Positions 3,337 through 27,955 of a stretch of 29,191 nucleotides of DNA are shown piece by piece. Every line of letters starts with the position of its first letter. The stretch's first letter is position 1. This stretch comes from a virus. The position numbers were made by a program, and so were the translations under genes. Location of the stretch: IMG/VR virus record IMGVR_UViG_3300032288_006360, positions 1-29,191 of that record, one strand, 5' to 3'. The notes under the pieces are model-generated. The model did not search any database, was not told the origin of the DNA, and saw only the letters and a program-made list of their open reading frames with translations.

Positions 3337-3906
3337 TTATAGGCTGAAATCTTCGAAGCCTTTGATATTTTCGCCATCTCTATATGTGGCGTCATGCGCT
3401 GAGTGAGATGATTCCGGTCCGCCCAATAGAGGCTTTTCTTCGTGATTGTGCGCTGGCTCTTCATGTCCTGCCAAGAAGTTGAATACTTCCTCGACATCGT
3501 CTTTTGATGTCGCTATGTGGTCTAACGCCCAGTTGTGCTCTGACAATATGGAGTCTACTTCTGATTCGTCCATCTCCAGCATCTCGTCTACAAGCCTCTT
3601 GATTGTCTTCAGGTTTCCGAAGAACATGTAGTTCTGAGTCTCTTGATGCTCTTTCAGAGACCTTAGAGTCTTTGCCAATTCCAATCTTCTTTTTTTAGTA
3701 GCATCCTTTTTGTCAAGCTGAGTTCCTGGCTTTTCCTTGTCTTTGTCTTTAGCCTTCAGCTTGTTGATTTCCTCTTGGATCTCTTTTTTCGTAAGCTTTT
3801 CGCCTTCTTCTTTTCCTAAAGACTTTTTAAGCGCGCCTGGGTGCTTGATCGCGTCTTTGATCCATTTTTTCTCTTCATTGAAAGAGCCGAAACTTTTTAT
3901 TTCCAT
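3337..3906 (-). CDS. Hypothetical phage protein with KHPGAL motif and C-terminal FEDFS tail
   Basis: A 189-residue, highly charged helical protein. It opens with MEIKSFGSFNEEKKW and then AIKHPGALKKSLG, a Lys-x-Pro-Gly-Ala-Leu type segment that I associate with phage proteins of unknown function. A Lys/Glu-rich coiled-coil-like region follows (about residues 35-95), then a His-rich acidic linker (AHNHEE, SSHSAHD), and the protein ends in ENIKGFEDFSL. Nearly the same peptide (IKKFEDFSLE) occurs inside the protein encoded at 26240-27235, and the N-terminal SFNEE resembles the FIxEE tags of the PPK2 and of the 88-residue protein at 13489. The gene sits between PPK2 (15-base gap with an A-rich leader) and the L,D-transpeptidase-like gene. 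A head-associated or packaged role is an inference only. Confidence 0.7.
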   Translation of the reverse strand: MEIKSFGSFNEEKKWIKDAIKHPGALKKSLGKEEGEKLTKKEIQEEINKLKAKDKDKEKPGTQLDKKDATKKRRLELAKTLRSLKEHQETQNYMFFGNLKTIKRLVDEMLEMDESEVDSILSEHNWALDHIATSKDDVEEVFNFLAGHEEPAHNHEEKPLLGGPESSHSAHDATYRDGENIKGFEDFSL

Positions 3907-3921: not shown

Positions 3922-5082
3922 TTATTTAAGCACGTTTACTACTTCTGGGTAGTATCTGCATATATTTTCATTCTTTCCTTCGTAAGGAATCGCGGAAAGC
4001 ACGTATCTCATCGCGTTGAGCCTTCCTATCTTCTTGTCGTTAGAGTTTATTATGACCCAAGGAGACGTCCTGCTCGAAGTCGTGTTGAACATCTGGTTCT
4101 TGTAGTGTCCGATCACCTCCCATTTGTCTACGACCTTTGCGTCGTTAGGAGAGAACTTCCAGTATTTGAGAGGGCTTTGCTGCCTTATGTCGAATCTCTT
4201 CAGCTGCTTCTCTTTTGTTATAGAGAACCAGAACTTGATGAGGCTAAGCCCTTGTCTTTTTATCATCTTCTCTTCCCATGCCAGCACTTTGTCCATGAAG
4301 TCCTTATACTGATCTTCCGTGCAGTAGCCCATCGCTGGCTCTACTACCGCCCTGTTGTACCAAGACCTGTCGAAGAATACTATCTCGCCTTCTTTAGGCA
4401 TGTGCGCTTCGTATCTGGCGAACCAGTTTTCCTTTTCCTCTGGAGTAGGAACTCCAAGCGCGACGACCCTGAATCCTTTTGGGTTCAGATACTCGATGAA
4501 TCTCTTTATGGTAGATCCCTTTCCTGCTGAATCCCTTCCTTCGAATACTATGGCGATCTTCTTTCCGTTCTTTATGACCCATTCCTGAAGCTTCAGAAGC
4601 TCTACCTGTATCTGGTACTTCTCTGCTTCGTAGTCTCTTCTTGTCAGTATGGATCTTTCGCCTTCGAATTCGTCGAAGTGCTGCGCCTGAGCTCCTGTCC
4701 TGATGACGGATATCCTGCTGTCTATGGTCCTTGCGAAGTCGTCGAACTGGCTTCTTATGTTCTTCTTTGTGTCTCTTCTCTTGAGCTCCATAAGCTGGTT
4801 GACTTTCCTTAGAAGAGTTTCTATGTTGAGGTCTTGTATGACTTCTGGAGTGAACTCGTTGTTGAGCTCTCTCATCATTATGTCTACTTCGATCTTGTCG
4901 AATCCTTTGTATGATATGGTGTTGGTCCTCATGTCATAGACGATGTTGTCTAATATAGACCTTTTGTATTCCGCGAGGCGACCGAGCAGGTTTCTCTTGA
5001 TCCGATCTACGTTTTCAGGATCCATCTTGTCGATCCTAAGCTCTTCTTTTATGAAATCCAAGAATTTGCGCAAATTCTTCAT
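3922..5082 (-). CDS. ppk2: Polyphosphate kinase 2 (PPK2) family phosphotransferase with N-terminal extension
   Basis: 386 residues. The PPK2 core spans roughly residues 135-385: Walker A EGRDSAGKGS (181-190), Walker B-type FFDRSWYNRAVVEP (236-249), and the lid segment RFDIRQQSPLKYWKFS (about 296-311). PPK2 enzymes move phosphate between inorganic polyphosphate and nucleotides, most often making NTP from NDP (or NDP from NMP in other classes) in the cytoplasm. Typical one-domain PPK2 proteins are about 270-300 residues; here some 130 residues are added in front, mostly charged helices. The first residues, MKNLRKFLDFIKEE, contain F-I-x-E as in the T4 capsid-targeting peptide MKTYQEFIAE, so packaging into the head is possible. 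It follows the WYL-like gene after a 39-base gap that contains the motif TTAATATATA. A phage nucleotide-supply role is the simplest reading. Family assignment is firm. Confidence 0.95.
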   Translation of the reverse strand: MKNLRKFLDFIKEELRIDKMDPENVDRIKRNLLGRLAEYKRSILDNIVYDMRTNTISYKGFDKIEVDIMMRELNNEFTPEVIQDLNIETLLRKVNQLMELKRRDTKKNIRSQFDDFARTIDSRISVIRTGAQAQHFDEFEGERSILTRRDYEAEKYQIQVELLKLQEWVIKNGKKIAIVFEGRDSAGKGSTIKRFIEYLNPKGFRVVALGVPTPEEKENWFARYEAHMPKEGEIVFFDRSWYNRAVVEPAMGYCTEDQYKDFMDKVLAWEEKMIKRQGLSLIKFWFSITKEKQLKRFDIRQQSPLKYWKFSPNDAKVVDKWEVIGHYKNQMFNTTSSRTSPWVIINSNDKKIGRLNAMRYVLSAIPYEGKNENICRYYPEVVNVLK

Positions 5083-7278: not shown

Positions 7279-8100
7279 ATGTTTCTAAAAATTGGTTCTA
7301 AAGGAGGAGATGTGAAGAATCTCCAAGAAAAGCTAGGATTGCCTGCCGATGGATCATTTGGTCCTGGAACCGAGAAAGCCGTAAAGGATTGGCAAGCCAA
7401 GATTGGATTGACGGCTGATGGCATAATAACTTCCGCAAATAAAAGCTGGGATTTAATGTTTGGCTCATCGGCTCCGGTTTCTAATGTTTTTATTCCTGCC
7501 AGCGAATTCAAGCTTGAGGCTTTAAAAGGGCATCTTCCGGATTCCGTGATCTCTCAGATTCCTGATACCGCTAAAAAGTTCAACATCACGACTGTATTGA
7601 GGCTAGCTCACTTCTTGGCGCAATGCGGTCATGAATCAGGCGGATTCAAAGCGGTTTCTGAGAACCTAAACTACTCTGCGGATGGATTGAAAAAAATATT
7701 CGGAAAGTATTTTACTGGCGATGCTACTGCTTATGCTAAAAATCCAGAAAAAATCGCTTCTAAAGTCTATGCCAACAGGATGGGCAATGGCGACGAAGCA
7801 TCTAAGGAAGGATGGAAATTCAGAGGAAGAGGCTATATTCAGCTGACTGGAAAATCTAACTATCAAGGATTCACAAAATTCATCGGAGAAGATTGCGTGG
7901 CAAATCCCGATCTAGTGGCCACTAAATATCCATTGGCTTCAGCTGCATTCTTTTTCGACTCTAATAAGCTATGGTCTATTTGCGACAAAGGTGCGGACGA
8001 CGCGACGGTAATTGCTGTCACTAAAAGAGTAAATGGCGGAACCATAGGATTACCGGATAGGATCAAGCATTTCAAAGAATTTTACAATTTGCTTAAATAA
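7279..8100 (+). CDS. Endolysin: peptidoglycan-binding domain plus GH19 lysozyme/chitinase domain
   Basis: 273 residues. Residues 1-56 form a PG_binding_1 domain (GSKGGDVKNLQEKLGLPADG, then FGPGTEKAVKDWQ). Residues about 75-273 are a glycoside hydrolase family 19 domain: AHFLAQCGHESGGF with the likely general acid Glu119, a second acidic residue at Glu128 in SENLNYS, the FRGRGYIQLTGKSNY loop (181-195) and VNGGTIGLPDR (251-261). GH19 phage endolysins cut the glycan strands of peptidoglycan at lysis. No signal peptide or signal-anchor is seen, so a holin or other export route is needed; none is evident next door. The ATG at 7279 is used because the nearby ATG at 7269 is out of frame and soon stops. 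The stop codon touches a bidirectional terminator. Codon use is slightly more host-like than in flanking genes. Confidence 0.95.
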   Translation: MFLKIGSKGGDVKNLQEKLGLPADGSFGPGTEKAVKDWQAKIGLTADGIITSANKSWDLMFGSSAPVSNVFIPASEFKLEALKGHLPDSVISQIPDTAKKFNITTVLRLAHFLAQCGHESGGFKAVSENLNYSADGLKKIFGKYFTGDATAYAKNPEKIASKVYANRMGNGDEASKEGWKFRGRGYIQLTGKSNYQGFTKFIGEDCVANPDLVATKYPLASAAFFFDSNKLWSICDKGADDATVIAVTKRVNGGTIGLPDRIKHFKEFYNLLK

Positions 8101-8130
8101 AAAAAAGAGAGCCAAAAAGCTCTCTTTTTT
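8101..8130. terminator. Bidirectional terminator between endolysin and the 8792 operon
   Basis: Perfect 12-bp stem AAAAAAGAGAGC / GCTCTCTTTTTT with a 6-base CAAAAA loop, giving a U run on either strand. Both convergent genes end at its edges (8100 and 8130). Confidence 0.93.
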
Positions 8131-8792
8131 CATGATAGTATGTTTTTAATCTTGGCGTCTCTTATCAGAATCTTGGATAGTCTTTCCGAGTGCATGCTGA
8201 TTGCTTCGAATATCTTTTTACTTGAAAAGAATCCGTTGTATATAGTTCTGAATTCGTCCTTTTCCAATATGAGCTTCAAGAATAGGTTTGGCTGAACCCT
8301 TGCTATGAACTTCTCGTATTCTTCTCCTTCTTTAAGATACAATATGTATGCTTGCTCCATTTCCTGTCCTAAGTTGAGCTCGGATGGCTCGAATCCTAGA
8401 TCTTTTAGCAAATTCGCCACCAGCTCGTATTTCTCGTATCTGCATTTGAGCTTAGTCTCGGTATCGTAGTACGAGAATCTCGACGGCATCATGTTGAAGT
8501 CCATTTCAGTTCCTATGTGGTAAGGATCGCTTTCCAATATTTCAGATAAATCTGACTCTCTTCTGTCTTCTCTGTTCATTATCATCTTTCTCTTCACGAG
8601 GTGAGACAGGTTTGTGTCGAACAGGAAGTGAGTTTCTCCTGTCTCTTCCGCCAATCTTTCGCATTCGTCGATGAAATATTGCTCTATCTCTGCTCTTTCG
8701 TATGTGAAAGAGCCTTCTTTCTCTACAAGTCCGTCGGGCTTGCTTCCGTCGTCTATTTGTATAGTGCCGTCAGGCATTTGTATTATGTTCAT
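8130..8792 (-). CDS. Hypothetical phage protein, 220 aa
   Basis: Not recognised. The start at 8792 overlaps the stop of the preceding gene as ATGA, which supports it over the longer in-frame ATG at 8855. The protein begins MNIIQMPDGTIQIDDGSKPD, then has a Glu/Arg-rich helical body (YERAEIEQYFIDECERLAEE), a segment NREDRRESDLSEILESDPYH, and a C-terminal helical half ending AISMHSERLSKILIRDAKIK. No signal peptide or membrane helix is visible. It is the last gene of a four-gene overlapping minus-strand operon headed by the nucleotidyltransferase, so it is probably made in fixed ratio with its neighbours. Function unknown. Confidence 0.78.
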   Translation of the reverse strand: MNIIQMPDGTIQIDDGSKPDGLVEKEGSFTYERAEIEQYFIDECERLAEETGETHFLFDTNLSHLVKRKMIMNREDRRESDLSEILESDPYHIGTEMDFNMMPSRFSYYDTETKLKCRYEKYELVANLLKDLGFEPSELNLGQEMEQAYILYLKEGEEYEKFIARVQPNLFLKLILEKDEFRTIYNGFFSSKKIFEAISMHSERLSKILIRDAKIKNILS

Positions 8793-9016: not shown

Positions 9017-9666
9017 TGCTTGTTGCTTTGTCTTTTTAAGAAATCCAGTTCTTCTTTGGTTATGTTGCTTATGCCTACTCTGCTTATTTTGTCTAATATA
9101 GAGTCTACGTCGAATCTTTTTTCATTTTCCTTTATTATCTTTTCCATGTCCGTGGATTCATTCTTGTCCATCTCTTTCATTTCGATTTCTGGGTGCATCT
9201 TCTCGAAATCTTTCATCTTGCTTTCCAGCTCTTCTCTTGAAATTGTTACTCCCATTACTTCTACCACGTCGTCTATCTGTTTTCCATATTTTACTCTTAT
9301 GCTTTCGATCAGGCTTTCGCTTAGCTTTTTGTCTATCTTCTCCGAAGTATAGATGCATCTGTTTTCCTTGAAGACATATATTACGCTTTTGTCCATCTGA
9401 TACACGAGATTTACGGCTTTGTAGTCTTTCAGCTTGGTGTCTATCATCACTGTATGGTTTATCCTGCTCACGAAGACAGCATGTCCTTTTTTTATGTTGT
9501 CCAATATCTCTTCGAATTGGCTAGCCATGTCTTTCAGAAGCTTCTTTCCTTTGAAATATTCCTTGATGCTTTCCGATGCCTTGGCGTATAGAAAGCCTAA
9601 TATGAACATCAGCGCAAGCGATGCTGCCAGCTGCGTATTCATTCCTAAAATTTCGGTCCCTGTCAT
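9013..9666 (-). CDS. Membrane-anchored protein with C-terminal DUF6576-like segment
   Basis: 217 residues. One N-terminal membrane helix (about residues 11-27, AASLALMFILGFLYA) is followed by a charged helical stretch (KEYFKGKKLLKDMASQFEEI) and a small alpha/beta region (VFVSRINHTVMIDTK, VNLVYQMDKSVIYVFKENRC). A charged linker leads to the C-terminal VDSILDKISRVGISNITKEE, then LDFLKRQS. That last segment follows the pattern of the DUF6576 tail found behind rhomboid proteases of Bacteroidota (ILDKIS..G...L...E..FL), here without a protease domain. It would sit in the inner membrane with a cytoplasmic body. Start at 9666 overlaps the nucleotidyltransferase stop as ATGA. Role unknown; regulation of host membrane processes is speculative. 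Confidence 0.65.
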   Translation of the reverse strand: MTGTEILGMNTQLAASLALMFILGFLYAKASESIKEYFKGKKLLKDMASQFEEILDNIKKGHAVFVSRINHTVMIDTKLKDYKAVNLVYQMDKSVIYVFKENRCIYTSEKIDKKLSESLIESIRVKYGKQIDDVVEVMGVTISREELESKMKDFEKMHPEIEMKEMDKNESTDMEKIIKENEKRFDVDSILDKISRVGISNITKEELDFLKRQSNKQ

Positions 9667-10853
9667 ATTATGTTATATATACTTTTCCTTATTTTGATGA
9701 GCAGGCTATTGACAAAATCTTCGTCTACTCTATCTGGAAGAGAAGAATTCGCGAACAGCTCGTCGATTTCCGCGATTTCCGCCTCTACTTGGTCGATCAG
9801 AGTCTGAAGGTCTATCTTTCCCTTTCTTATGTCGATAAGCTCCTTAGCGTTTTCCCTTCTGACTTTTATGCCTTGTCCCAACGCTATCTCTCGTGCCATG
9901 TCCATCAGCCTTCTCGAATGCATCATGTTCTTGCCGTCTATCTTCTGGCCGTGAGACTGAACGTCTACCCATCTGGATTCGTTCTTGTTCTCTAGCCATT
10001 CCTGATATGACTTATAGTCCTTGCAGTGCTCGGTATAGCTGTCTTTGTTGTAGACGATGCTGCATATCGGCACTTCCTCTTTCGGAATGGAAGAAAGCCT
10101 CAGCGAGTTTGACTCGGCAGCGTTAGCTCCTTCGCCCGTCTTCACCAGTCCTTTGTATCCGAATCCTAGCTGCTGGCCGATTTCCTTCTTGGCTTGTATA
10201 AGCGCTTTTCTTGATTCTTCAGAAACGCTTTCCGAAAAGCACAGATGCGACTGTATGTCATAGTAGACCGTGTATACGTCTTTTGCGTTCGGCACGTTCA
10301 CTATTCCGCAGAACTTCTCTTCGAATCTTCTGTCTTCGTTCCATTTCTTCCATGGGATGGACTTTGATCCGTCTATGACGTAGACGAAGTCTAATACTTC
10401 CTTTCGCGTCACTTTGTCTCTTTCCCAGTTTTGCTTCTTGTTCTGCCCTTTTGCCTTCTGTATCTGCATCTTTCCGTATCCGCCGAAAGACTTGGCGCAT
10501 GCTTTGGTTATGAACTTTTCCCTGTTTTCGAGCACTAGTTCGAATATGGGATCTTTGTAGATTATGCAGTCTTCTGGGGTGTTCAGAAGCTCCAGCACGG
10601 TAGGGTTGTTGCTGGAAAGCAGCTGCAGGAATCTCTTTATCTCGTAGATGACGGTATCGTTCTTTTCGTCGTTTATCTGCTCTTTGTACCTGAATCCGAA
10701 TATGTCGTCCGCGGACTGTATGAAGACTCCTGCATAGTCGGTGTCTGAAGTCTCTACGTTGGTGCCGTAAGCATGCGACCCTCTTATGACAAGCAGCAGT
10801 GGCTTGGCGCCTGGTGACTTTTCTTCTATGAATCTGAATAGCTCTTCTTTCAT
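9663..10853 (-). CDS. RlaP-like nucleotidyltransferase
   Basis: 396 residues from the ATG at 10853, preferred over 10883 because an A-rich leader (AAAATTCAAAAATG) precedes it. The N-terminus holds the Pol-beta-type nucleotidyltransferase signature G-S-H-A-Y-G (25-30) followed by D37-T-D39-Y-A-G, the paired acidic residues that bind metal. This G-S-x-A-Y-G arrangement is typical of the predicted RlaP family, which is often seen in phages and near RNA ligases. Later regions are charged and include RDKVTRKEVLDFVYVIDGSK and NMMHSRRLMDMAREIALGQG, the latter likely a helical nucleotide-site segment of this family. Substrate is unknown; end modification of RNA or a small molecule is possible. It heads a four-gene operon with successive ATGA overlaps. 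Confidence 0.82.
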   Translation of the reverse strand: MKEELFRFIEEKSPGAKPLLLVIRGSHAYGTNVETSDTDYAGVFIQSADDIFGFRYKEQINDEKNDTVIYEIKRFLQLLSSNNPTVLELLNTPEDCIIYKDPIFELVLENREKFITKACAKSFGGYGKMQIQKAKGQNKKQNWERDKVTRKEVLDFVYVIDGSKSIPWKKWNEDRRFEEKFCGIVNVPNAKDVYTVYYDIQSHLCFSESVSEESRKALIQAKKEIGQQLGFGYKGLVKTGEGANAAESNSLRLSSIPKEEVPICSIVYNKDSYTEHCKDYKSYQEWLENKNESRWVDVQSHGQKIDGKNMMHSRRLMDMAREIALGQGIKVRRENAKELIDIRKGKIDLQTLIDQVEAEIAEIDELFANSSLPDRVDEDFVNSLLIKIRKSIYNII

Positions 10854-10918
10854 TTTTGAATTTTGTCTTACAAATATAGCCATAATGCCGCAAATAAAAA
10901 ATAAAGCGATGCGGGAAT

Positions 10919-13487: not shown

Positions 13488-13492
13488 CCTAT
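13479..13492. terminator. Weak palindrome at a 1-base convergent junction
   Basis: ATAGG / CCTAT with an ATAG loop that contains the TAG stop of the fibre gene. The 5-bp stem and lack of a strong T run make it a doubtful terminator, unlike the other convergent junctions. Confidence 0.3.
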
Positions 13493-13755
13493 AGAGATTT
13501 TATTATCTGTATGATGTTCTCAAGCGAGAATCCGTCGAGAGGCTTTCCTCCTGACTTCAGGTATTCTTGGTATATGTTGTTGTAGTCGTCTATGGTGTAG
13601 AATTTCGAATCCAGCTCGCAGAATATCACGTTTGTGTCATGAGAATTAACGGTCTTGTTCTGCAGCCTTGTCTCTCCGTATGCTGGCCCTACCGGTCCCA
13701 CGAGCTCGGTTCCGCTCACCTCTTCATTTATGAAGTCTCTGAATTTCTTAATCAT
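13489..13755 (-). CDS. Small phage protein with FIxEE N-terminal tag, 88 aa
   Basis: It begins MIKKFRDFINEEVSG, which shares K-F-x-D-F-I-x-E-E with the PPK2 start (RKFLDFIKEE) and F-I-x-E with T4 internal-protein targeting peptides. The next part, GPVGPAYGETRLQN, is Gly/Pro-rich and could be a linker after a removable tag. The C-terminal 50 residues (NVIFCELDSKFYTIDDYNNI, YQEYLKSGGKPLDGF) form a small alpha/beta unit of a type I believe recurs in phage genomes without known function. The start overlaps the stop of the upstream minus-strand gene by 8 bases. A head-packaged peptide is an inference. Confidence 0.7.
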   Translation of the reverse strand: MIKKFRDFINEEVSGTELVGPVGPAYGETRLQNKTVNSHDTNVIFCELDSKFYTIDDYNNIYQEYLKSGGKPLDGFSLENIIQIIKSL

Positions 13756-26239: not shown

Positions 26240-27235
26240 ATGGCCAAAATAGAAAGAGCTGAAAAGTTCCTTAAAGAGGAAAAGCCGAAAAAGACCAAAG
26301 ACCTTGAAGTAGGGTTCGACATCGAATCGTTCGAAGGAGAAGAAGATACCGACACTCTTGGATTCAGATCCGAGCTTGAGCCTATCGCTAAGGGCGAAGA
26401 GAAGAAGTTGAAGAAAGAAATACAGGTTACCACTCCTGGACTGAAGAAGTCCATAAAGAAGTTCGAAGACTTCTCTTTGGAGGTCGAAGATGAATACGAT
26501 CCTTACGAATATTCTGGATTCGGATGCTGTCCTGTATGCACGGGAGAGAGAGACTGCGAATGTGGATGCGTCGAGTGCAACTGCCCGCCAGATGAAGATG
26601 AGTACTGTGGCTCTTGCGACTGCATGCCTTGCGAGTGCGAGGATTCTTCGAATGACGATATCGCCAAGTTTTCAGAATTCGGCGACGACCTTGTCCTTTC
26701 CGAAAGCTTGAAGTATCATCTGGATAACAAAAAGCCTATCACTGAAAATATATTCAGACCAGGTTCTGAGGCCTTCTATGACGTTCTTAAAGAAGCTAGA
26801 AATCATTTTGATTCCAATAGAGTAAACCTAACCGGGTTGGACAGGGATTTGTTTGAGTCTACCGAGATAGGAAGGTTCGCTAAGTTCAAAGGCGAGATGG
26901 TTCCTTTGGATCTTCCGATGGAGGCGATCGAGGAAGTGAACGAGGCTGAATACAAAGGCAGGGAAGTCGAATTGAATCATCCAATGAGAGGCGGAAAGAA
27001 GAAGTATCACGTCTATGTTAGGAATCCTAAGACTGGTAAAGTCAATAAGATTGCGTTTGGCGATGTTCATGGAGGATTGACCGCAAAGGTTAGCGATCCT
27101 AAGGCAAGAAAGAACTTTGCGTCTAGACACAAATGCTCTACCAAGAAAGACAAGACTAAGGCTGGATATTGGGCTTGTAGAATAAACAAATACGGACATC
27201 TTTGGGGTGGAAAAACTTATCCTGGATACTGGTAA
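26240..27235 (+). CDS. Cys-rich phage protein with C-terminal RHKC/YWAC module, 331 aa
   Basis: Residues 1-80 are a Lys/Glu-rich helical region ending in KKSIKKFEDFSLEVEDE, whose KFEDFS core matches the tail of the protein encoded at 3337-3906. Residues about 95-134 hold 13 cysteines in about 40 residues (CCPVC, then CECGCVECNCPP, CGSCDCMPCEC), spaced like metal-binding knuckles. Next comes ENIFRPGSEAFYDVLKEARN and IGRFAKFKGEMVPLDLPMEA. The C-terminal 80 residues (YHVYVRNPKTGKVNKIAFGD, then KNFASRHKCSTKKDKTKAG and YWACRIN) match a small module I know from phage and giant-virus proteins (DUF5872-like), with a possible Cys/His site at RHKC...YWAC. A head-related or scaffold role fits the module and tag, but this is inference. 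The leader is A-rich (AAATAAAAACATG). Confidence 0.65.
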   Translation: MAKIERAEKFLKEEKPKKTKDLEVGFDIESFEGEEDTDTLGFRSELEPIAKGEEKKLKKEIQVTTPGLKKSIKKFEDFSLEVEDEYDPYEYSGFGCCPVCTGERDCECGCVECNCPPDEDEYCGSCDCMPCECEDSSNDDIAKFSEFGDDLVLSESLKYHLDNKKPITENIFRPGSEAFYDVLKEARNHFDSNRVNLTGLDRDLFESTEIGRFAKFKGEMVPLDLPMEAIEEVNEAEYKGREVELNHPMRGGKKKYHVYVRNPKTGKVNKIAFGDVHGGLTAKVSDPKARKNFASRHKCSTKKDKTKAGYWACRINKYGHLWGGKTYPGYW

Positions 27236-27955
27236 AAATTCATTATTTTTTATTAATAAAAAAATACAAAAAAATGAAAAACACTAAGTAAATTACTTTA
27301 ATGAAGGGAGAATTTTCTTCAGATGAAGCTAGAGAAATTTTATTTAATACATGAAATATTTAAAAACATATAAAATATTTGAATCTATTGTAAGTGAAAA
27401 ATTATATCACGGTAATAGAAAAGGCGATTTTCCGCCTCAGATAAAAAGATTCGCAGGTGCTATATTCTTAACCAGTAATATAGACTTTGCAAAAAACTTT
27501 GCTTCACTTGATGAGAAAGATGAATTTCCAGATGCGTCGGTTTTTGAAGTTAAACTTAAATCTGATATTAAGTTGTGTAATCCAATGGATAGTGAAGTAA
27601 TGAAAGAATTGAATTTGATTGCGGTTATTCAAAAAATGATAGATAGTAACTATATTGATAGTGTTAATGGTACTAAGTTTGTTAAAGTTTCTAATGGTAT
27701 GAGAGGGTATAATCCGGATAAAGATGAAGAGTTTGATATAACTGGTCAAGAAGAAAGTGTCTATCATTATTTATGGAGAGTAAAAAATGGAGCATGGCGA
27801 GTTGTTGAATGTGAGCCAATTATTAATCAGATAAAGTCTAAAAAATATGATGGGTTTTATGTAATTGAAAGAGGTTCTAAAAATGTTGCAATATTTGATG
27901 AGTCGTCAATTGAGAAATTTAATAAGATAATATAGTGTTACCATATAAAGAAACT
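27236..27955. other. AT-rich island holding the ADP-ribosyltransferase-like gene
   Basis: From the stop of the Cys-rich gene to just inside the cupin-like gene the sequence is far more AT-rich than its surroundings: 27601-27660 has 14 G/C in 60, against 23 in 28021-28080. The 115 bases at 27236-27350 contain no convincing gene; a 17-codon frame at 27301-27354 overlaps the next start and is probably chance or a remnant leader. Confidence 0.6.
27351..27935 (+). CDS. ADP-ribosyltransferase-like protein with capsid-targeting-like N-terminus, 194 aa
   Basis: The N-terminus MKYLKTYKIFESIVSE resembles the T4 internal-protein targeting peptide MKTYQEF. It is followed at residues about 18-21 by LYHG, then GAIFLTSNIDFAKNFAS, and then VFEVKLKSDIKLCNP. 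This order (Y-H-G on the first strand, a strand-turn-helix I-F-[LF]-T-x-x-x-x-x-A-x-x-[YF]-A, and a following V-x-E/K-V strand) is the usual look of ART-fold proteins of the Y-H-G class. The catalytic third motif is not clear to me. T4 packages an ADP-ribosyltransferase (Alt) in the head and injects it to modify host proteins, so a similar role is possible. The gene is strongly AT-rich compared with its neighbours, which suggests recent acquisition. Its stop overlaps the next start by one base (TAGTG). Confidence 0.5.
   Translation: MKYLKTYKIFESIVSEKLYHGNRKGDFPPQIKRFAGAIFLTSNIDFAKNFASLDEKDEFPDASVFEVKLKSDIKLCNPMDSEVMKELNLIAVIQKMIDSNYIDSVNGTKFVKVSNGMRGYNPDKDEEFDITGQEESVYHYLWRVKNGAWRVVECEPIINQIKSKKYDGFYVIERGSKNVAIFDESSIEKFNKII

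Follow-up and report, generated by a model that had tools for sequence, protein, structure and literature searches.

Why would a bacteriophage encode a polyphosphate kinase 2 (PPK2), and does the stretch ahead of its kinase core send the enzyme into the virion? The question is raised by a 29-kb virus fragment of IMG/VR (G000; 29,191 nucleotides, the whole of the DNA analysed and hereafter the window), in which 26 open reading frames (ORFs) are found. The original prediction held that a PPK2 core is preceded here by additional residues whose beginning resembles the targeting peptide of the T4 internal proteins, and that the enzyme may be carried in the phage head and work right after injection.

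The kinase and the phage that carries it

The gene and the landmarks of its kinase part are as follows.

3922..5082, minus strand: PPK2 gene, 386 aa, ATG start at 5082
3970..4644, minus strand: PPK2 kinase domain, residues 147-371 (PF03976, E 9.3e-77; Foldseek match to 5LL0)
4513..4539, minus strand: Walker A, GRDSAGKGS, residues 182-190, read from the sequence and largely invariant in the 50-sequence alignment
4354..4377, minus strand: Walker B, FFDRSWYN, residues 236-243, with N243 at the class I signature position

It is almost certain that the product of this ORF is a PPK2 enzyme. Residues 147-371 match PF03976 in Pfam with 258.1 bits (E 9.3e-77) against a cut-off of 22.3, and the protein scores 306.3 bits with TIGR03707 of NCBIfam, above its cut-off of 301.8; the PPK2 core originally claimed is confirmed. 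The catalytic motifs pointed out at the time, namely EGRDSAGKGS, FFDRSWYNRAVVEP (from aa 236) and the lid RFDIRQQSPLKYWKFS, are all present, and Walker A with its catalytic Asp, Walker B and the lid sequence are conserved in the PPK2 alignment. An AlphaFold2 model, for which the 50-sequence alignment served as input, reaches a pLDDT of 89, and Foldseek places its kinase part on 5LL0 (TM 0.95 by target length, 47% identity over 240 residues, E 7e-27), the Francisella PPK2 structures being the nearest solved relatives. The kinase fold, the Walker A and B motifs and the Asn signature are common to the phage protein and the class I PPK2 of Francisella tularensis (5LL0, TIGR03707), whereas a helical domain of ~110 residues and a tag are found only in the phage PPK2 and not in its cellular relatives, including that of Francisella.

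The class of a PPK2 can be told from the residue after Walker B, where Asn stands for class I, and enzymes of class I phosphorylate nucleoside diphosphates (PMC8776046). At this column, which was located by the alignment pattern and without direct superposition, Asn is present in all 50 aligned rows (N243 in the window). Judged by these motifs, the enzyme should be of the class I type and is predicted to make GTP and ATP from GDP and ADP together with polyphosphate.

Across 22 of its 26 ORFs the window runs colinear with the contig G001 (113 kb), and the two PPK2s are 88% identical. The 634-kb genome LR745206 (W01, 779 ORFs) matches 20 of the 26 ORFs, and the 735-kb genome LR756501 (W03, 819 ORFs) matches eight; each ORF comes from a mechanical call within 20-kb pieces of sequence and begins with ATG. 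The genomes above 634 kb described by Al-Shayeb in 2020 are placed in the Mahaphage clade, with Bacteroidetes as predicted hosts (PMC7162821), and the PPK2 gene probably belongs to a Mahaphage-type huge phage. Elsewhere in the window, at 9663-10883 on the minus strand, lies an RlaP-type nucleotidyltransferase (PF10127, E 6.7e-20), a member of an RNA-repair family.

The view that PPK2 is not a usual phage gene needs correcting. As many as 348 candidate loci in IMG/VR encode a relative, and metagenomic work has described viral ppk2, with its presence and expression, as an auxiliary metabolic gene (PMC13188868). Those genes likewise encode a phage PPK2, and the accessible part of that report describes them without an N-terminal tag or packaging. 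Viral ppk2 is already known; in the literature searched, outside which most subscription journals fell, neither the proposed packaging label nor the extent of its use was found. When the kinase cores are arranged in a tree, a 100/99 branch sets the 53 phage rows apart, with three long-branch cellular rows among them; since the cellular rows were chosen as best matches, the tree shows separation and not the origin of the gene. The 735-kb phage encodes a second PPK2 (L059, ~7874-8578, corresponding to LR756501 447874-448578), which is untagged, carries FNRSYYEE and looks like class III.

The N-terminal extension

Ahead of the kinase domain, two parts can be distinguished.

5041..5082, minus strand: N-terminal tag MKNLRKFLDFIKEE, residues 1-14, with the core F7xxF10-I11-K12-E13
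4696..5019, minus strand: phage-specific N-terminal domain of PPK2, residues ~22-129, helical with a beta hairpin

The extension spans ~145 aa and not the 130 residues originally counted. Structure prediction of the N-terminus, as suggested at the time, gives a helix of low confidence for residues 2-14 (AlphaFold2) and then, for residues ~22-129, a folded domain of helices and a hairpin with a pLDDT of ~90. A correction is needed here: the tag takes up no more than ~14 residues, and residues ~22-129 make up a separate folded phage domain. This domain has no fold match at E<=0.001, and its identification with a known domain was abandoned, as neither Pfam nor comparison with PDB sequences and folds gave the extension a match of note. 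A profile built from the extension, in part from these same loci, hits 78 of 80 viral PPK2 loci; of the 1686 ORFs taken from 80 cellular PPK2 loci it hits none, which argues that the domain is phage-specific and is not a cellular N-terminus. Cellular PPK2 N-termini gave no alignment with the extension, and the original reading was not refuted by its own sequence-level test.

The inner-head cargo of the giant phage SPN3US carries N-terminal propeptides of 124-127 aa, which are thought to be prohead-targeting (PMC5694885). There the whole of the ~125 residues is removed, whereas in PPK2 only ~13 residues are propeptide-like and the rest is a folded domain that is kept in relatives.

The N-terminal sequence MKNLRKFLDFIKEE is present as it had been quoted, and the start of the PPK2 is backed by orthologues (L002, L005 and IMG/VR loci) that are similar from this very Met onwards. 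With a weight matrix trained on another phage (W03), the tag of the window PPK2 scores 18.0. The PPK2s of distant huge phages start with MKNLRKFLDFIKEE, MRNLYKFIDFIKEE, MPVYNFHKFINEE, MINNFIKFINEE and MISNYDNFMNES, and F10 and E13 are invariant among six aligned huge-phage orthologues. A cut by a prohead protease is predicted after E13.

Recurrence of the tag across huge-phage genomes

A loose form of the tag motif occurs in the first 14 residues of 100 of the 779 ORFs of W01, against 1.4% of interior windows, and in 93 of the 819 ORFs of W03. The strict core [FY]xxF[ILMV]xE lies within the first 18 residues of 20/779 ORFs in W01 and 34/819 in W03, where shuffles give 0.9 and 1.4, and the same search of phiKZ, phage G and RaK2 returned 0. 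An iterated weight matrix puts the number of tagged proteins at ~130 per 634-735-kb genome, or ~16% of ORFs (W01, W03); as the profile was trained iteratively, counts within one genome are partly circular, which does not apply to the cross-genome test or to that on T4. Carried across genomes, the matrix trained on W03 picks 6.8% of the N-termini of W01 against 0.11% of its interior Met sites. The step [ILMFV]xE is found at residues 7-17 in ~73% of tagged proteins, ~40% of shuffles and 21-25% of untagged ORFs, an enrichment that is partly circular because the matrix rewards Glu at those positions.

Once the tag is removed, the 131 tagged proteins of W01 fall into 117 clusters and the 128 of W03 into 94, which indicates that the tag is borne by unrelated proteins; on the W01 figures, gene duplication was rejected as the source of the tags. 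Codons are used in the tag much as in the genome at large, which points to selection as a peptide, and a signal at the level of RNA or DNA was rejected on the same ground. Orthologues of tagged proteins are themselves tagged more often than those of untagged proteins in three comparisons (6/17 vs 9/136, 6/11 vs 3/67 and 6/8 vs 3/55), a retention above expectation with Fisher p from 0.002 to 3e-5.

While most tagged ORFs have no family match, those that do include PPK2, NUDIX, CCA-type nucleotidyltransferase, RNA ligase, 2'-5' RNA ligase, NFACT-R, RNase T-type exonuclease, an Acb1-like anti-CBASS protein, peptidase M15, methyltransferases, dephospho-CoA kinase, DeoC and GNAT. A match to a DNA primase family, seen for one tagged protein, is less readily expected of a cargo, and a few other tagged ORFs resemble membrane proteins and are probably false positives. 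Two further tagged proteins are encoded in the window.

13489..13755, minus strand: second tagged protein, 88 aa, MIKKFRDFINEEVSGTELVGPVGPAYGE..., tag score 27.7
27351..27935, plus strand: third tagged protein, 194 aa, MKYLKTYKIFES..., tag score 8.9 with the W03 matrix

The 88-aa protein is conserved in LR745206 (74%) and in G001 (82%). For the 194-aa protein no family match was found, and its assignment as an ADP-ribosyltransferase, suggested by eye alone, gained no support from the family search. A literature search, outside which most subscription papers fell, returned no prior report of such tag sequences or of capsid-targeting sequences in huge phages. Ribosomal protein rpS21 reportedly has N-terminal extensions in huge phages; it was rejected as a tagged protein, the W01 copy starting with MLIIKIKEGEK and the open frames being only 64-70 aa.

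Two other ORFs of the window deserve mention on their own account. Beside PPK2, at 3337-3906 on the minus strand, a 189-aa ORF starts with MEIKSFGSFNEEKK and ends with GENIKGFEDFSL, and is tag-like at both ends, with a weak match to phrog_15706. At 26240-27235 on the plus strand, a 331-aa protein with a tag-like stretch in its interior (KSIKKFEDFSLE) also has a segment rich in cysteine (CPVCTGERDCECGC) and, at its C-terminus, a phrog_7595 domain; it could be a precursor that is cut internally.

The probable link to the capsid and the competing readings

In phage T4, the internal proteins IPI, IPII and IPIII carry the targeting sequence MKTYQEFIAE, which is cut by the gp21 prohead protease. A blind scan of 202 T4 ORFs with the W03-trained matrix ranks IPIII (19.6), IPII (18.6) and IPI (11.5) as the top three, and all three are annotated in T4 as internal head proteins. 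Apart from the targeting sequence, the internal proteins of T4 have nothing in common and form a diverse group (PMC3012670). The huge phages resemble T4 in that the core [FY]xxF[IL]xE is N-terminal on otherwise unrelated proteins and in that a gp21-family protease and a gp23-family capsid gene occur within the same phages. They differ in that the same profile finds three tagged ORFs in T4 and ~130 per huge-phage genome, many of them enzymes, and in that their protease is fused to a motif-repeating scaffold and the packaging of their tagged proteins is a prediction. To our knowledge, ~130 cargo types per virion would be far beyond any known case.

The window itself contains no head genes, and the capsid link rests on its relatives. 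A gp23-like capsid gene and a gp21-type protease are present in W01, W02 and W03. Immediately upstream of this capsid gene lies an ORF whose product is a head maturation protease (phrog_207, E 4e-30, in agreement with tblastn to annotated proteases), fused to a tandem-repeat region, e.g. NIAYSEYIAENLDK. Within this protease-scaffold fusion, the core [FY]xx[FY][ILMV]xE occurs 11 times in W01, 14 times in W03 and 11 times in G001, against ~0.2 in shuffles. The N-terminus of the capsid protein is propeptide-like and ends in YAEFHSINE or YAEMHQMNE, each followed by N across a likely cleavage site, as seen also in G001. At the level of sequence, the tag, the scaffold repeat, the capsid-protein site and the YQEFIAE of T4 have one core in common. 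The resemblance to the T4 targeting peptide, noticed originally on PPK2 by itself, is now supported by genome-wide recurrence, by the blind ranking of IPI, IPII and IPIII, and by the presence of its core in the scaffold repeats and of a similar core in the capsid-protein propeptide.

The enzyme family, the tag and its genome-wide use were computed here, as were the scaffold repeats, protease and gp23-like capsid gene of the relatives. Taken with the T4 scan, they make it quite probable that the tag is a T4-type capsid-targeting sequence, and reasonably likely that PPK2 is packaged and delivered with the DNA. The tag would mimic the repeat of the protease-scaffold fusion (Y-S-E-Y-I-A-E), and this mimicry would draw PPK2 into the scaffold core of the prohead, where the S77-type prohead protease would cut after FIKE, at residue 13, and leave the enzyme in the head. 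Injected together with the DNA, PPK2 would use the stored polyphosphate of the new host and supply NTPs at once, ahead of phage gene expression.

It could be asked whether the tag is an address label for somewhere else, such as a replication/transcription compartment, a membrane or a non-prohead protease, with PPK2 acting in the cell. That ~130 proteins per genome are many for a capsid, and that the tagged set includes the DNA primase match and many nucleic-acid enzymes, would fit such a destination. However, the core of the tag is that of the capsid scaffold repeat, with a similar core at the capsid-protein propeptide, and it is the internal head proteins that the blind scan singles out in T4; we regard another address as unlikely.

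Still less probable is that PPK2 is an ordinary cytoplasmic auxiliary metabolic enzyme, as viral ppk2 is known to be (PMC13188868), with an N-terminal likeness that is incidental or a relic. The tag-A motif is indeed missing in many group B viral PPK2s, but huge-phage PPK2s keep the tag at their start down to 42% identity, and the group B enzymes open with another short motif of their own that has an [IL]xE step. One of these, in contig G005 (IMG/VR 3300027804_000038), starts with MRKLLTEVEKIKEIMG, and in this phage of a group B PPK2 (loci L311-L325) an exploratory search found an enriched N-terminal motif, MK[YL][LI]ITESQ, in 25/323 ORFs vs 10/1326 interior sites. This motif possibly hints at the label of another lineage. 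None of its type was found in G006, and the group B start motif MRKLLTEVERIREMIG... is unsupported as a genome-wide label (1-4 of 323 ORFs in G005). A DHH-like enzyme is tagged in W01 (MISKYNQFINEE) and starts with MRKIISES in G005. A point against the capsid reading itself is that RaK2, pT24 and HTVC008M, with heads of the gp21/gp23 type, show no tag enrichment, so the tag is not general to such heads; either it is a trait of the lineage of the window or labels differ between lineages. In L192 and L201, group B viral PPK2 cores are fused to much longer N-terminal regions, in ORFs of roughly 800-1000 aa.

That PPK2 sits in the head and works there during assembly or storage, synthesising polyphosphate or adjusting counter-ions around the DNA, is hardly credible, for although the enzyme is reversible and the tag would put it in the prohead core, a closed head has a poor supply of NTPs. 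The best-studied class I PPK2 also strongly prefers NDP phosphorylation over polyphosphate synthesis (PMC8776046).

Under the preferred reading, namely capsid targeting and delivery with the DNA, a broader proposal follows that could equally well prove right or wrong: the largest phages would load more than 100 different proteins into the head via one short scaffold-mimicking label and inject this kit with the genome. The predicted kit may comprise metabolic, RNA-repair and anti-defence enzymes, e.g. PPK2, NUDIX hydrolases, the CCA-adding enzyme, RNA ligase and the Acb1-like protein. If true, the injected proteins among the unknowns of the largest phages could be read from sequence, and ~16% of such a genome would move from 'hypothetical' to 'predicted injected'. 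It would also explain how a huge phage could act, ahead of the expression of its genes, on a host that is poor or defended, and the idea of T4 internal proteins, so far a handful of small anti-restriction proteins, would be widened to take in whole metabolic enzymes. Moreover, the label could be leveraged for loading foreign enzymes into very large capsids.

Finally, the likely cut in the capsid protein (L019, 752-2434) is followed by a sequence of the form SGMGAVxxAQPxxLAGT, which recurs in a small tagged protein (L013, 13266-13520) and in a third protein (L036, 14784-15284).
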